A model generated the notes under the pieces. That model saw only the letters and a program-made list of their open reading frames with translations, ran no database searches and was not told where the DNA came from. From the NCBI GenBank assembly GCA_002363635.1, contig DEWM01000027.1, positions 4,446 through 13,683 of the forward strand: 9,238 bases of DNA. Direction: 5' to 3'. The number at the start of each line of letters is the position of its first letter. Position 1 is the first letter of the stretch. Positions 3,731-8,733 of this stretch are shown in pieces. The stretch is from Caryophanales bacterium UBA3210. Its GTDB lineage: Bacteria > Bacillota_I > Bacilli_A > RFN20 > CAG-449. The position numbers and the translations under genes are program-made.

Positions 3731-4324
3731 ATGGAATATAATGCTAGACTTGGTTGGGTAGAAGTTATTTGTGGACCGATGTTTGCGGGTAAATCTGAAG
3801 AACTTATTAGAAGAGTTAAAAGATGTGAATACGCAAAAAAGAAAGTAGTAGTTTTTAAACCTACTATTGATAATAGATATGCAGAAGATGCTGTTGTTTC
3901 TCATAATAAAAGATCTACTAAATGTTATAACTTAACTGATGTTAATGATGCTTTTAAATATGTCGATGAAGAAACTTATGCAGTTGCTTTTGATGAAGTT
4001 CAGTTTATGGATAAAGAAATATTAAATGTAATTTCTAAACTTGCAGATCAAGGTAAAAGAGTTATTTGTGCTGGCTTAGATAATGATTTTAGAGGTGAAC
4101 CTTTTTCTATCATGCCTCAATTATTATGTATGGCAGAATATGTTACTAAATTAACTGCTATTTGCCAGGTTTGTGGAGCGGCTGCTACTCGTACTCAACG
4201 TATTGTTAATGGTATTCCTGCTTTTTATGAAGATCCGACAATTATTATTGGGGCACTTGAAGCTTATGAACCTAGATGTAGACATTGTCATACTGTCCCT
4301 CATAAAATTAAATTAGGTGAGTAG
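3731..4324 (+). CDS. tdk: Thymidine kinase (type II)
   Basis: This cytosolic salvage enzyme phosphorylates thymidine (and deoxyuridine) with ATP to dTMP. The 197-residue product has the whole type II fold: Walker A GPMFAGKS (residues 15-22), the DEVQF motif with the expected catalytic Glu89, a zinc site made by Cys145/Cys148 (CQVC) and Cys183/Cys186 (CRHC), and the substrate-covering lasso between them (about 160-180, ending in [10 protein letters not shown]). Length is normal for the family. A TTG at 3725 would add two residues, but the AAAGGGG ribosome binding site fits ATG 3731 much better. It is the first gene of a two-gene operon; the acetyltransferase start follows one base after its TAG stop. 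In many Firmicutes tdk sits near prfA/prmC; that is not the case here. Confidence 0.96.
4315..4320 (+). promoter_or_regulatory. Ribosome binding site overlapping the end of tdk
   Basis: AGGTGA lies within the last tdk codons, 5 bases before ATG 4326. It supports ATG 4326 over the in-frame GTG at 4317, which would sit inside this site and has no purine-rich site of its own upstream. Translation of the second gene is probably coupled to tdk. Confidence 0.6.
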
Positions 4325-4325
4325 C

Positions 4326-4916
4326 ATGAACGCGGTTACATATAAAAGGTATAAATTTATCTGCGATTATCTTATTAAGAATTATTATTCATCTAGAGTA
4401 GAACTTCGTTATATTGATAAAAATGATAAAGCTGATTATTTTGAATTATTTGATGATAAAGAATCTAATCATAATTCAGGTCTACCTTTAGAAATGAGTG
4501 AAGAATATAAACTTAATAGACTTAATGAGGCTATTAATTTATCCGGCTATTTTGAATTACCTTTAGGAATTTTTTATAAAGAGAATAACAAATTAATTGG
4601 TACTATCTCTATTGCAGATAGACCTTACTTTTATACTCATGAGAAGTTAAAGAATTTAAAAGGATTAGGTTTATCTTTTATGCTTAATTCTTCTTATCAG
4701 AGAAAAGGAATTATGAGTGAAGTTCTTAGGGAAGTTTTATCTTTATTAAAAAGAGAAGAACTTCATTTAGATTTTATTAATGCTGGTTATTATTCTTATA
4801 ACGAAGGAAGCAAGATTCTTCAAGAAAAGATGGGATTTAAACCTCTTTTTGAAGCAGTTCTTGACTTTAATGGGGAAAGAAGAAAAGTAATAGAATGTTT
4901 CATTTTTAATAAATAA
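4326..4916 (+). CDS. GNAT family N-acetyltransferase (RimJ/RimL-like)
   Basis: Predicted to transfer an acetyl group from acetyl-CoA to an amine; the substrate cannot be read from the sequence. The 196-residue protein has a GNAT fold: a beta strand with 'LPLGIFYKENNKLIGTISI' (about 78-96), then the acetyl-CoA pyrophosphate loop in motif A, SSYQRKGIMSEVL (about 122-134, Q/RxxGxM type), and the motif B segment NEGSKILQEKMGFKPL (about 159-174), where Asn-Glu-x-Ser leads into the helix and the typical MGF turn. The N-terminal 25 residues are variable. RimJ/RimL-type members acetylate ribosomal protein N-termini, but many relatives act on antibiotics or small metabolites, so no narrower name is given. 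It is co-transcribed with tdk (one base between stop and ATG). A GTG start at 4317 would give 199 residues and is less likely. Its TAA touches the foot of the shared terminator. Confidence 0.85.
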   Translation: MNAVTYKRYKFICDYLIKNYYSSRVELRYIDKNDKADYFELFDDKESNHNSGLPLEMSEEYKLNRLNEAINLSGYFELPLGIFYKENNKLIGTISIADRPYFYTHEKLKNLKGLGLSFMLNSSYQRKGIMSEVLREVLSLLKREELHLDFINAGYYSYNEGSKILQEKMGFKPLFEAVLDFNGERRKVIECFIFNK

Positions 4917-4946
4917 AAAGATTCAGGTTATTTTCCTGAATCTTTT
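4916..4946. terminator. Shared bidirectional terminator between convergent operons
   Basis: A perfect 12-bp stem (AAAAGATTCAGG at 4916-4927, CCTGAATCTTTT at 4935-4946) with a 7-base loop. It ends in T-rich sequence on the + strand (TTTTGTTTTG) and, because the left arm is A-rich, in U-rich sequence on the - strand as well. The acetyltransferase stop (4914-4916) abuts the stem and the GT2 stop (4928-4930, - strand) is inside the loop, so one hairpin ends both operons. Confidence 0.92.
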
Positions 4947-6283
4947 GTTTTGTTTACTTCTTCTAATGTTGATGTGTCATCGTGAGGAATAGCGTCCCAT
5001 TTAATCTTTCTATTAAAAATCGCATAGATTCTTATAGGTAAAGAGATTAAATCAAAGATAGGCCAATGTAATAAATAAAAAACCATTTTGTACCATTTGT
5101 AATGGATCCTTTTTCGTTCTCTAATTAATACTAATATTCCTAGTGCAAGTATTGCTAGATATGTAGTTAATAATGTTGTGCCTACTGTATGTAAATAGCC
5201 AAGGATTTGGTATGTTCCGGTTGTATTTACTTGGAAAACTATATCAATAATTAATATTACTATAGATAATACTAAGACTAGAATATCGTAAGGAAAGGCT
5301 TCTAGATACATATCATAATTTGAGAATTTTCCTGTTTTAAAAAGGCTTTTAACTAATTTATGTGAATTCTCAAAGAAATTATCAAGTGCACCTTTTGCCC
5401 AACGTGCTCTTTGTTTAAGAGAAACTTTTATTGAGTGAGGCTGTTCATCATAAAATACAGCTTCTTCACAATAACCAATTTTTTTATTATTTGAAATTAA
5501 TAAGAATGTAAATTCTGCATCTTCAGTGAGTTTTACATAATTCCATCCATCTTTCATAATGTAGTTATGACAGACAAAGCCTGTTCCGTCTAATAATGTT
5601 GAATTGTGGAAAACCGCTCGAGGACGATGTGAGATAATAACATTTCTATAGAAGTGAAATCCATATGAAGAAGAGATTAAATTTGTTCCAAAATTTTTAA
5701 TATCTCTATATCCTTTTACTACATCCCAATCTGCTTCTAATGCATCATTCATTTTATCTAAGAATAATGGATCTACTAGATTGTCTGCATCAAAGAATGC
5801 ATATGCTTCAAAAGACATAATTCCATAATCTTTTTCAATTTGAGTGAAGAGATATTGTAGGCCTAGACCTTTGGTATCTCTACTTTTTTCGTTCATTTCA
5901 TAGACAATGGCACCATGATTACGCGCAATTAATGCGGTATTATCAGTACAATTATTTGCACTTACAAAGATAGTGATTTTATCTTGTGGATATTTATTTG
6001 CTTTAATTGAATCTATTAAATTTCCGATTACTTTTTCTTCATTTCTTGCGGCAATAATTACTGCAAATGATTTTTTCTTTTCTACATGCTTATATTTTGG
6101 TGCCTTACCAAAGACACCTACTAAGATATAGACAACTCTATATAGGATTAAGATACTATAGATAACGATTAGATAATTAACTATTGTTTGAGCAATGTGC
6201 TCAGGCTCAAACGCTAAATATGTACTTGAAACCCAATTTACTATATATTGCCAAATTTTATTAAAAAATTCGTCAAAATTCAT
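4928..6283 (-). CDS. Membrane glycosyltransferase family 2, processive synthase type
   Basis: Predicted membrane enzyme transferring sugars from a nucleotide-sugar to a growing surface polysaccharide or glycolipid. The 451 residues hold an N-terminal membrane segment (about 34-58), a cytoplasmic GT-A domain (about 72-300) and three further hydrophobic segments (about 331-350, 365-388, 399-423). GT-A landmarks: AVIIAARNEE at 74-83, Asp114 in NNCTDNT, the metal-binding DAD at 165-167, the acceptor-side TED at 253-255, and QRARW at 291-295, which is the QxxRW signature of cellulose, hyaluronan and poly-GlcNAc synthases. QxxRW suggests a processive enzyme, but single-addition relatives exist and the sugar cannot be told. 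No PilZ domain is visible, so control by c-di-GMP is not suggested. A clear AAGGA site precedes ATG with 8 bases of spacing and overlaps the stop of the upstream GT14 gene, 11 bases away, so the two are one operon. Its own stop lies in the terminator loop. Confidence 0.9.
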   Translation of the reverse strand: MNFDEFFNKIWQYIVNWVSSTYLAFEPEHIAQTIVNYLIVIYSILILYRVVYILVGVFGKAPKYKHVEKKKSFAVIIAARNEEKVIGNLIDSIKANKYPQDKITIFVSANNCTDNTALIARNHGAIVYEMNEKSRDTKGLGLQYLFTQIEKDYGIMSFEAYAFFDADNLVDPLFLDKMNDALEADWDVVKGYRDIKNFGTNLISSSYGFHFYRNVIISHRPRAVFHNSTLLDGTGFVCHNYIMKDGWNYVKLTEDAEFTFLLISNNKKIGYCEEAVFYDEQPHSIKVSLKQRARWAKGALDNFFENSHKLVKSLFKTGKFSNYDMYLEAFPYDILVLVLSIVILIIDIVFQVNTTGTYQILGYLHTVGTTLLTTYLAILALGILVLIRERKRIHYKWYKMVFYLLHWPIFDLISLPIRIYAIFNRKIKWDAIPHDDTSTLEEVNKTKDSGK

Positions 6284-6294
6284 AATATAATTCC

Positions 6295-7200
6295 TTATTC
6301 AAATTTGCATTTAAAGTCTGGATTCTTACGATTTTCATAAATCTTAAGAACTACTTCAGGCTCTGTTTTTAAATCAAATTTACGTGCGTATAAACATGGG
6401 TATTTTGGATTATAGATTTTCTTATAATCTTTCATTGTGAGTAATCTTGGTGCATTTAATGTGTACCAATCACAGTAAAGAAGTGCTCCACCTCTTTTTC
6501 CTTTGATAAATAATTTATCGTAGTATGGTGAAGAATAAAGTACTTCCGCCCAAATGTGTTCGTCTGCAATTAATGTATTTTGATATTTTTCTACTAAGTG
6601 ATTATTATCGATTGTCTCTACTAAATATTTTAAACAGTCTTTAGTAATAGAGTACCAAAGTAAAGTTGTTGGAACTTTCCATGATTTGAATTGCTTATTT
6701 TTACCAATTGCCCAACCAAATAATGTATCACATACTACATCTCTAAAAGCTAAGATGTTTCTATGTTTTCTTTGCCATGCTGTATATGGCTTTGAATGGT
6801 CTAAATGTAATCTACTTCTTTTTGTCCAGTCAAATCTTACATCAATAAATTCTGTACCTTTATGTCTTTCGAAGAATGCTTTAATTTCTTCATCTGGATA
6901 TAATGGTAAGCATGATTCTGAAACCATTGTAAAATAATCGTAATCAAGAGATAAGGTTTCTCTCATAAGATTTAATGTTGCGGTAGTAGTGGTTATTCCT
7001 CCCCAATAAACATCAAATCTATTTTGTGCAAAATGAATGTTTTTATCATCTTTATATTTGTTATATAAGAATTGGTATAATGGTTCACTTTTTGCGTCAA
7101 TTTGAATGACAATTTGGTTACCATTTACATTTAATAATTGAATTAAATTATCACATTGTTCTTGTTTGCCTGAAGCAAGTAATCCATAACATAATTTCAT
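6295..7200 (-). CDS. Glycosyltransferase family 14 (core-2/I-branching type)
   Basis: Predicted beta-linked sugar transferase of the family that includes core-2/I-branching N-acetylglucosaminyltransferases and xylosyltransferases; bacterial members modify surface glycans. In 301 residues the Branch domain landmarks appear in order: VIQIDAKS (31-38), VYWGGITTTTATLNLMRETL (64-83), the DYDYFTMVSESCLPLY block (86-101), the TTLLWYSITKDCLKYL segment (178-193), and IADEHIWAEVLYSSPY (211-226). Glu214 in the DEH motif aligns with what I recall as the catalytic Glu of mammalian C2GnT (PDExxWAT). There is no signal peptide or membrane segment, so it should work in the cytoplasm, presumably at the membrane next to the GT2 enzyme encoded just downstream. 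AGGAG (7207-7211) stands 6 bases before the ATG. First gene of the operon; the donor and acceptor are unknown. Confidence 0.88.
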   Translation of the reverse strand: MKLCYGLLASGKQEQCDNLIQLLNVNGNQIVIQIDAKSEPLYQFLYNKYKDDKNIHFAQNRFDVYWGGITTTTATLNLMRETLSLDYDYFTMVSESCLPLYPDEEIKAFFERHKGTEFIDVRFDWTKRSRLHLDHSKPYTAWQRKHRNILAFRDVVCDTLFGWAIGKNKQFKSWKVPTTLLWYSITKDCLKYLVETIDNNHLVEKYQNTLIADEHIWAEVLYSSPYYDKLFIKGKRGGALLYCDWYTLNAPRLLTMKDYKKIYNPKYPCLYARKFDLKTEPEVVLKIYENRKNPDFKCKFE

Positions 7201-7250: not shown

Positions 7251-7274
7251 AAAAAAGGAACTCTTAGGTTCCTT
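7251..7274 (-). terminator. Terminator of the Wzz-like/FolT-like gene
   Basis: On the - strand, AAGGAAC (7274-7268), a 6-base loop and GTTCCTT (7261-7255) form a perfect 7-bp stem whose 3' arm runs into six U (7251-7256). It is separated from the stop codon only by two copies of the 13-bp repeat and overlaps the last copy by two bases. Confidence 0.85.
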
Positions 7275-7311
7275 AATTATTTGCATTAATTATTTGCATT
7301 AATTATTTGCA
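7273..7311. repeat. Three exact 13-bp tandem repeats
   Basis: TTAATTATTTGCA occurs three times without a mismatch (7273-7285, 7286-7298, 7299-7311). On the coding (-) strand the unit is TGCAAATAATTAA; the first unit encodes the final Ala-Asn-Asn of the protein and provides the TAA stop (7299-7301), and the other two fill the space to the terminator. Confidence 0.97.
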
Positions 7312-8561
7312 TCAATATTATTTATTGATTTTGCTGTTAGGTACTTTCTCTTTTTAATAATTGTTTCAATTTGTTCTTCATCTATTAAATTATATCGAGC
7401 AAGTATTGGCGCAAGTGCTTGTAATACAAAATATAAAACGAGTGATTGAGGTACTAGATATATTATGTTCTTTGGTAAAGAGAAGATTAATGCATAGAAA
7501 TATGTTTGTTCAGCTGTATATGAACAGACTATTCCCCAACAAATAGATCCAAGTACAACGTTCATTAGGAAGTTGACTAAGATTCTAGAAATAAAACATT
7601 TTGTATAAGTTAATTCTGTTTTATATAAGCAAATTCCGTAAATAAAGCCTGTTAATGCTGCTTGGATAGAGTAACCAAAAAACCAAGCGTATGCAGATTG
7701 TTGAATAAGAAAATATCCAATAGTATCAGATAATAATCCTATAATTAATCCTGCGATAGGACCATATATCATACCGATTGTGGCGAAAACTAAATAGGTA
7801 ATTCCAATTCCTAAATTACTAAATCCGCTTGGCAAAGAGAAGAATTTGCAAATTAACATAAGTCCAAATAGCATTGCAATTGTTGTAATGTTTTTGGTGC
7901 TTTTAAATACTTTTAGAGCATCTTTCCAATATTGCTTATGGAATGGTGTTTTATAGATATGTTCTTTTGATGTTTCTTCTAATAATAAATCACCATATTT
8001 CTTATATGCTAAATAGGTAATTAATATATATGTGCTTGTTAATAACATTAATGTACCTGTTGATATTAAATATATTGCATATGTAGGAAGTGGATTTGTT
8101 TCTACTAAGATATCATTATAGCTATAACTAACAGTAGCATTATTCTTTTTAGCGTAATTATTTAATGCTGTCTTTATGAATGTTTTTGCACGAGTAGAGA
8201 CTGTGTTGCTTTTTGCTAAGAAGAAGGTATCGTAATATGATGTTTTAGTAGTGATTTCATATTCTTTAGTTATTGAAGAATATGTTACAACAAAATCTTT
8301 TTTATCAATCATTTTTTTAACATTGATATCTTTGTAATAACTATTTTTTTTATTTAGTGCTTCTTGCGTTTCTAATAATTCTTTTCCATCATTTAGTGTT
8401 AAAAAATCTGCTGCTTCATTATTAACAGTAAAGCGTATAGAATAGGATGAGTTGTAAGTGTTGTAAACACTTGAGATTGTAAATCCGAGTAAGAATGATG
8501 AGACTAGTACAATAAGTAACATAATCTTCTTTTTCCATAGATAATTTAAGTATTTCTTCAT
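7299..8561 (-). CDS. Wzz-like N-terminal domain fused to a folate ECF transporter S component-like domain
   Basis: A 420-residue membrane protein in two parts. Residues about 224-392 resemble folate-family ECF S components (FolT): an initial TIAMLFGLMLICKF helix, then GIGITYLVFATIGMIYGPIAGLIIGLLSDTIGYF (about 251-284 in all), the AWFFGYSIQAALTGFIYGICLYK block (292-314), and a helix rich in Asn (RILVNFLMNVVLG). Such proteins bind folate in the membrane and are driven by a shared EcfA/EcfA'/EcfT module encoded elsewhere. Residues 1-190 are additional: a basic start (KKYLNYLWKKK), a membrane helix (13-33), about 125 extracytoplasmic residues beginning YNSSYSIRFTVNN, and a second helix (161-184) preceded by PLP. 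This is the topology of Wzz/YveK chain-length regulators, but sequence similarity is weak, so that label is inferred. A cytoplasmic linker (about 185-223) joins the parts. Usual S components have about 170-190 residues. A folate-type riboswitch in the leader supports the FolT assignment. The SD GGGAGGT is 9 bases before ATG. Confidence 0.72.
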   Translation of the reverse strand: MKKYLNYLWKKKIMLLIVLVSSFLLGFTISSVYNTYNSSYSIRFTVNNEAADFLTLNDGKELLETQEALNKKNSYYKDINVKKMIDKKDFVVTYSSITKEYEITTKTSYYDTFFLAKSNTVSTRAKTFIKTALNNYAKKNNATVSYSYNDILVETNPLPTYAIYLISTGTLMLLTSTYILITYLAYKKYGDLLLEETSKEHIYKTPFHKQYWKDALKVFKSTKNITTIAMLFGLMLICKFFSLPSGFSNLGIGITYLVFATIGMIYGPIAGLIIGLLSDTIGYFLIQQSAYAWFFGYSIQAALTGFIYGICLYKTELTYTKCFISRILVNFLMNVVLGSICWGIVCSYTAEQTYFYALIFSLPKNIIYLVPQSLVLYFVLQALAPILARYNLIDEEQIETIIKKRKYLTAKSINNIDANN

Positions 8562-8597
8562 AAAAAAATGACCTCCCGAAATAACTTCGCAAAGGTC
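8562..8597 (-). promoter_or_regulatory. Riboswitch expression platform: SD-sequestering hairpin with U7 tail
   Basis: On the - strand GACCT (8597-8593) pairs with AGGTC (8574-8570); the stem continues through two G-U pairs and CGAA/TTCG (8589-8586 with 8580-8577) to a 5-base loop. The 3' arm contains the Shine-Dalgarno GGGAGGT, and A plus seven U (8568-8562) follow, ending at the ATG. The hairpin can thus block ribosome binding and also looks like an intrinsic terminator. A competing stem, GTCCGC (8614-8609) with GCGGAC (8600-8595), uses the same GAC, so the two cannot coexist. Confidence 0.8.
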
Positions 8598-8705: not shown

Positions 8706-8733
8706 ATTATATATTATTTGAATAAATTGTCAA
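8706..8733 (-). promoter_or_regulatory. Consensus sigma-A promoter for the riboswitch-controlled gene
   Basis: On the - strand TTGACA (8733-8728) and TATAAT (8711-8706) are both perfect, 16 bases apart. The start of transcription should fall near 8699, just before the aptamer's P1 strand, so the transcript begins almost directly with the riboswitch. High basal transcription fits a gene controlled after initiation. Confidence 0.9.

Follow-up and report, generated by a model that had tools for sequence, protein, structure and literature searches.

The S components of energy-coupling factor (ECF) transporters are proposed to deliver their substrate by toppling within the membrane, as set out in the relevant portions of PMC7145868 and PMC10368641, and an AxxxA motif in their first helix is described for docking to EcfT in the part of PMC11109136 that treats it. 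Polysaccharide co-polymerases (PCPs) are a separate group of membrane proteins, in which a proline-rich segment precedes the second transmembrane (TM) helix, according to the portion of PMC7809406 on their architecture. The gene described here appears to join one protein of each kind. It lies in a window, by which we mean the whole 9,238-nt stretch analyzed, taken from contig DEWM01000027.1 of Caryophanales bacterium UBA3210 (GCA_002363635.1; positions 4,446–13,683 of the forward strand). An open reading frame of 420 codons, uninterrupted on the minus strand from the ATG at 8561 to 7299 (7299..8561), encodes a folate ECF S component preceded by a PCP-like N-terminal module, as judged from the frame, profile matches and structural models. 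The gene is real, and the fusion is neither an artefact nor a chance architecture. Genomes, loci or proteins, families and genera carry the codes G, L, f and g throughout this analysis.

The C-terminal half is very probably a folate ECF S component, and folate binding and uptake are predicted for it, because the profile match, the fold, a tetrahydrofolate (THF) riboswitch upstream and the residues on the pterin side of the pocket all point the same way. Residues 220–392 (7386..7904, minus strand) show the six-helix S-component fold that places them with FolT, and residues 220–383 match the NCBIfam profile TIGR04518 at 78.9 bits, above its curated cut-off of 60, in line with the folate-type assignment made in a preliminary description of this DNA. 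The EfFolT pterin-side contacts R26, D64, F80 and T81 correspond to K, D, Y and S in the window protein; the sites are kept or conservatively replaced in 68, 72, 72 and, as T or S, 65 of 72 aligned rows, respectively. On the glutamate side, N117 and K145 are kept in all 72 rows, and K36, T121 and R142 are replaced in most or all of them; the L. delbrueckii FolT likewise differs at K36 and T121. The AxxxA-like docking residues in helix 1 of the S domain are A229 and G233, both sites being A, S or G in 72/72 rows. The docking partner EcfT is encoded in the same genome (138 bits) and in 21/21 genomes, in a search aimed at EcfT only and not at the ATPases.

Preceding the S domain, residues 1–195 are predicted to form a TM helix, an outer domain of ~120 residues and a second TM helix, the order that had been proposed from the sequence. 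The model places the first TM helix at residues 12–37 (8451..8528, minus strand; predicted local distance difference test, pLDDT, 84–88 in blocks of ten), a predicted extracytoplasmic, mixed α/β domain at residues 38–159 (8085..8450, minus strand) and the second TM helix at residues 160–184 (8010..8084, minus strand), with the helix extending to ~194 in the full model. A predicted cytoplasmic linker bearing the motif TPFHK.YW (residues 195–219, from the alignment; 7905..7979, minus strand) connects this module to the S domain. Conservation was counted over 147 rows, three unrelated frames having been removed from 150 and three diverged and four hairpin proteins, introduced below, being left out. 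Across these rows, the outer domain is 100–128 residues long (median 117), the linker, measured from column 186 to column 219, has a median length of 32 residues, and a basic residue stands at the start of the first TM helix in 133/147. Within the outer domain, R124 is near-invariant (146/147), position 128 is aromatic in every row (147/147), and the longest helix in the model spans residues 124–139. In a coevolution analysis between the halves (150 rows, effective 82.5, three unrelated frames included; six shuffles), hub columns dominated the top pairs.

The preliminary description had allowed that the two parts might share a frame only here, as an isolated artefact; this does not hold. A sequence search returned 189 proteins at E ≤ 1e-3, and the 120 matches listed are 342–426 residues long and cover 77–100% of the query; fused genes occur across four families. 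Among the first 58 genomes of the window's order we found 12 complete fused genes, including the window's (genera g1, g2 and, in family f8, g11), and one gene cut by a contig end, whose module cannot be judged (G003, L056); four further fused genes lie in genus g47 of family f4. A class-wide sample of 395 genomes contributed family f27, with 12 recognizable modules, three proteins whose outer part is longer and diverged (G351, G553, G610) and four that retain only a helical hairpin. These four proteins (G506, G418, G477, G570; L112–L115) are 266–267 residues long. By eye, their S domain is preceded by a pair of helices with a short connecting loop and no outer domain, so that they represent a natural outer-domain deletion. 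Thirteen relatives read in families f23, f25 and f20 comprise the S domain alone (172–225 residues). The homologue scan scored only part of the candidates in many genomes (for example, the best 12 of 15), so that weak matches can be missing. A genome-contig scan with a single protein as query yielded no relative, phage records gave five partial matches, none covering 80%, and in the open-access literature (PMC, with subscription papers and preprints outside its scope) we found no description of such an S-component fusion.

A midpoint-rooted maximum-likelihood tree built from 49 S domains, in which some branches are long, unites the 36 fusion-group rows (31 with module, four hairpin, one cut; four families) in a single clade with 100/100 support. 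These sequences are most simply explained by a single fusion event followed by divergence, with the outer domain lost once. Because unfused f23 proteins carry a similar (P)F.K.YW element ahead of their S domain, the linker is apparently older than the fusion. The same data bear on whether the fusion was an accident, tolerated since the linker frees the S domain, with an outer domain that plays no role in transport. The N-terminal part does diverge fast, with an identity below that of the S domain in 465/465 pairs of the 31 module proteins, and one subclade has lost the outer domain, both as such an accident would predict. However, 35 of the clade's 36 rows, which span four families, retain the module or its helix pair, the remaining one being the gene cut by the contig end, and drift would hardly give the conservation seen at R124 and position 128. 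An idle outer domain is unlikely.

We consider it probable that the N-terminal module descends from a PCP. When the module was modelled alone, the first 30 Foldseek rows were all KpsE, Wzc or WzzE chains at middling scores, none at E ≤ 0.001, and a search of a viral structure library gave nothing at that threshold. In sequence, the outer domain matches an unannotated coiled-coil membrane family (L078–L085) at an hhalign value of 98.0%, against 0.2% for the reversed control. The eight members read are 416–484 residues long and run from a TM helix through an outer domain and a helical stretch of ~200 residues to a second TM helix, without a confident Pfam match; in the place of R124 they carry Q, V or I. 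Seven of the eight members scanned had no match to Wzz models at E ≤ 0.1 and one had a weak match (E 0.045), none of six scanned with NCBIfam exceeded its cut-off, and their outer domain alone reached 0.1% against the Wzz set, which is no sequence match.

The preliminary description had likened the N-terminal half to Wzz and YveK; the fold resemblance and the intermediate coiled-coil family sustain that likeness, and membership of the Wzz family finds no support. The window protein had no match to Wzz (PF02706) at E ≤ 1; among 67 rows, six matched at E ≤ 1 (best, 0.0014), the G007 protein scored 20.5 bits against a gathering cut-off of 25.5, and PF02706 was missing from the precomputed domains of all 120 matches listed, of the 189. 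Direct homology to Wzz was tried and rejected: aligned with nine Wzz proteins of relatives, the whole module reached an hhalign value of 88.6%, but its outer domain by itself reached just 0.2%, so we attribute the signal to the membrane helices and rely instead on the intermediate coiled-coil family as the stronger evidence. The modelled outer domain has no long periplasmic coiled-coil helices, and the proline-rich segment before the second TM helix is missing as well. The PLP sequence there, earlier taken as a PCP trait, turned out to be peculiar to the window protein, with P..P in 1/147 rows and any proline in 45/147. Because the protein falls below the Pfam cut-off, has neither the coiled coil nor a proline-rich segment, and shows no match to Wzz when its outer domain is compared alone, that domain would be PCP-derived at most and probably not a member of the Wzz family.

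From these observations we propose, at slightly less than even confidence, that the folate S component is fused to a PCP-like module which stands upright beside it and serves, at the outer face, to capture or gate folate. A soluble domain of ~120 residues held between two TM helices could hardly cross the bilayer together with a toppling subunit, and because so bulky an outer domain can hardly topple, the module is expected to remain upright as the S domain moves. It would then serve as a companion or pillar, with the S domain rotating on the cytoplasmic linker; the outer domain might cover the gating loops of the pocket, pass folate on, or keep the S domain in a ready position. Capture or gating of folate by the outer domain is the likeliest of its possible roles, though taken as a step by itself it is less probable than not. 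The fullest version, in which a PCP module that had shed its coiled coil was taken over in a single event and its upright outer domain, as a regained binding protein, both guides the toppling subunit and captures or gates folate, appears rather unlikely as a whole.

A different use of the module would be as a scaffold, the PCP-derived part forming small rings or clusters that keep several S components near a shared ECF module, so that folate is favoured over competing vitamins. PCP proteins form octamers, as described in the structural portion of PMC7809406; competition among group II S components for a single ECF module is described in portions of PMC7755397 and PMC10368641; and the TM pair was kept despite the loss of the outer domain in 4/4 hairpin genes, the helices being judged by reading the sequences. 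Against clustering of this kind, neither a coiled coil nor a proline-rich segment is present here, and the two-helix bundles of the WzzB octamer make no mutual contact, going by the same portion of PMC7809406. We hold it to be improbable.

Folate metabolism offered one further explanation for the fusion. In the window's order, folC was found at E ≤ 1e-30 in 154/279 genomes and in 0/17 genomes with a fused gene (16 complete, one cut), a distribution which, with the altered glutamate-side pocket residues, would suit an outer domain that helps import polyglutamyl folates where folylpolyglutamate synthase (FolC) is missing. However, folC is present in 19/19 f27 genomes with this S component, fused or hairpin, which rules out polyglutamate uptake as the reason for the fusion; the unfused f1 relatives (genera g3 and g4) are without folC too, and the T121 site is already glycine by eye in the five unfused f23 proteins. 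The chance that this explanation is correct is close to negligible. By family and genus, none of the 18 f1 genomes, the four f8 genomes or the four g47 genomes had a folC match at E ≤ 1e-30. Serine hydroxymethyltransferase, considered as an indicator of folate use, fits no simple picture: it was found at E ≤ 1e-30 in 10/17 fused-gene genomes of the order, and the seven genomes without a match at that threshold (G000, G001, G005, G007, G008, G011 and G014) include all three from genus g2.

The control elements of the gene are arranged compactly on the minus strand, and the single frame with one riboswitch and a Shine-Dalgarno sequence noted in the preliminary description is borne out. A consensus sigma-70-type promoter, TTGACA-16-TATAAT (8706..8733, minus strand; 12/12 consensus bases), lies directly upstream of the riboswitch and is the best of 22 promoter-like sites, a number not above chance (shuffles average 27.8). 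The THF riboswitch aptamer RF01831 (8605..8698, minus strand) scores 57.5 bits with the covariance model, against a gathering threshold of 36 (E 3.8e-11; full model, 1–99). The Shine-Dalgarno sequence GGGAGG, read from the sequence ten bases before the ATG (8572..8577, minus strand), has its bases mostly paired in a hairpin of the predicted minimum-energy fold (z −2.1), which fits translational control as a plausible mode of regulation. An intrinsic terminator directly past the stop codon (7255..7274, minus strand) has a fold z of −2.9, with 0/200 shuffles as stable. With promoter and riboswitch upstream and this terminator after the stop, the transcript likely carries the fused gene alone. 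A 13-base tandem repeat at 7273–7316 (3.4 copies, 96% match) overlaps the final codons and the stop.

Riboswitches recur across the relatives. Of the 31 module genes, 30 have a THF aptamer, 27 over gathering and three below (L004, L005, L010; 30.5–31.4 bits, E 0.01–0.018), so that proteins of the same architecture do share it; L097 had none at E ≤ 0.1, nor did any of the four hairpin genes. The unfused f23, f25 and f20 genes have it in 13/13 cases, three below gathering. In genera g3 and g4, the stand-alone S components (L058–L064) also have it, in 7/7 cases and strongly (71.8–76.3 bits); in an NCBIfam scan of L058, L059, L061 and L064, three fell under the TIGR04518 cut-off (54.3–59.5 against 60 bits), and the pocket motif of L058–L064 differs by eye; they are possibly another folate-related S type. 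Separately, in G018:C27, G020:C1, G022:C130, G046:C14 and G053:C61, a folate-family S component follows directly after folC in a frame of 243–279 residues, and the two that were aligned (G018 and G022) carry an insertion of ~70–80 residues in the middle of the S component.

Two glycosyltransferase genes (PF02485 and GT2 types) adjoin the fused gene, beyond its terminator, and had earlier been read as a hint that vitamin uptake is linked to envelope glycans. Such a link, in which a Wzz-like module couples uptake to surface glycan assembly, draws on these neighbours, on the PCP-like fold and on a member of the related coiled-coil family in G001 (L087:5200-6489, minus strand; same genus as the window genome), which adjoins a Wzx-type flippase and sugar genes. 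That G001 protein looks like a capsule-locus co-polymerase. Both glycosyltransferase genes are real, but the terminator separates them from the fused gene, the riboswitch reads folate and not sugar supply, and tblastn of the window proteins against 10 wider loci of relatives matched neither glycosyltransferase, with Tdk matched in five and SecG in four. Of the 11 loci compared, that of this genome is the only one in which a GNAT gene and the two glycosyltransferases (4317–7200) separate tdk from the fused gene, likely an insertion peculiar to it. The 10 loci thus gave no glycosyltransferase match that would mark a glycan locus, other glycan genes there being judged only from protein starts. 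Coupling to glycan assembly is very unlikely.

If the upright module does capture or gate folate, the protein would be the first S component to possess an ectodomain of its own, ECF S components otherwise working without an extracytoplasmic binding protein. The fusion also suggests that a glycan-assembly fold has been reused in vitamin uptake. Toppling of S components is an open mechanistic question, for which one with a bulky ectodomain is a natural test: it topples relative to a fixed neighbour, or not at all. Unfused relatives, full fusions and the subclade that lost the outer domain but kept the two helices provide natural controls within the present set.

Compared with known systems, the fused protein shares with FolT, the group II folate ECF S component (PDB 4huq, 4z7f, 5d0y, 7nnt; TIGR04518), the six-helix fold, the pterin side of the pocket and the small EcfT-docking residues. 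Unlike FolT, it is extended at the N terminus by ~200 residues, in which two TM helices and an outer domain are predicted, and 3/9 of the EfFolT folate contacts are non-conservatively replaced. The 5TMR sensor kinases and MreD share the S-component fold, and the kinases show that it accepts fused domains; as far as the pertinent portion of PMC11109136 goes, those domains are mostly cytoplasmic signalling domains and AxxxA is absent, whereas the protein described here retains its docking residues and carries a domain that is predicted to be extracytoplasmic. With PCPs (Wzz PF02706, WzzE, KpsE, the N-terminal part of Wzc and the YveK/CapA type), the protein has in common a predicted TM helix with a basic residue at its start, an α/β outer base domain and a second TM helix. 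It differs from them in lacking the coiled-coil protrusion and the proline-rich segment, in scoring below the Pfam cut-off, and in being fused to a vitamin-uptake protein outside a glycan locus. The coiled-coil family L078–L085 shares the sequence of the outer domain, and differs in keeping its long helical stretch and in having no S component.
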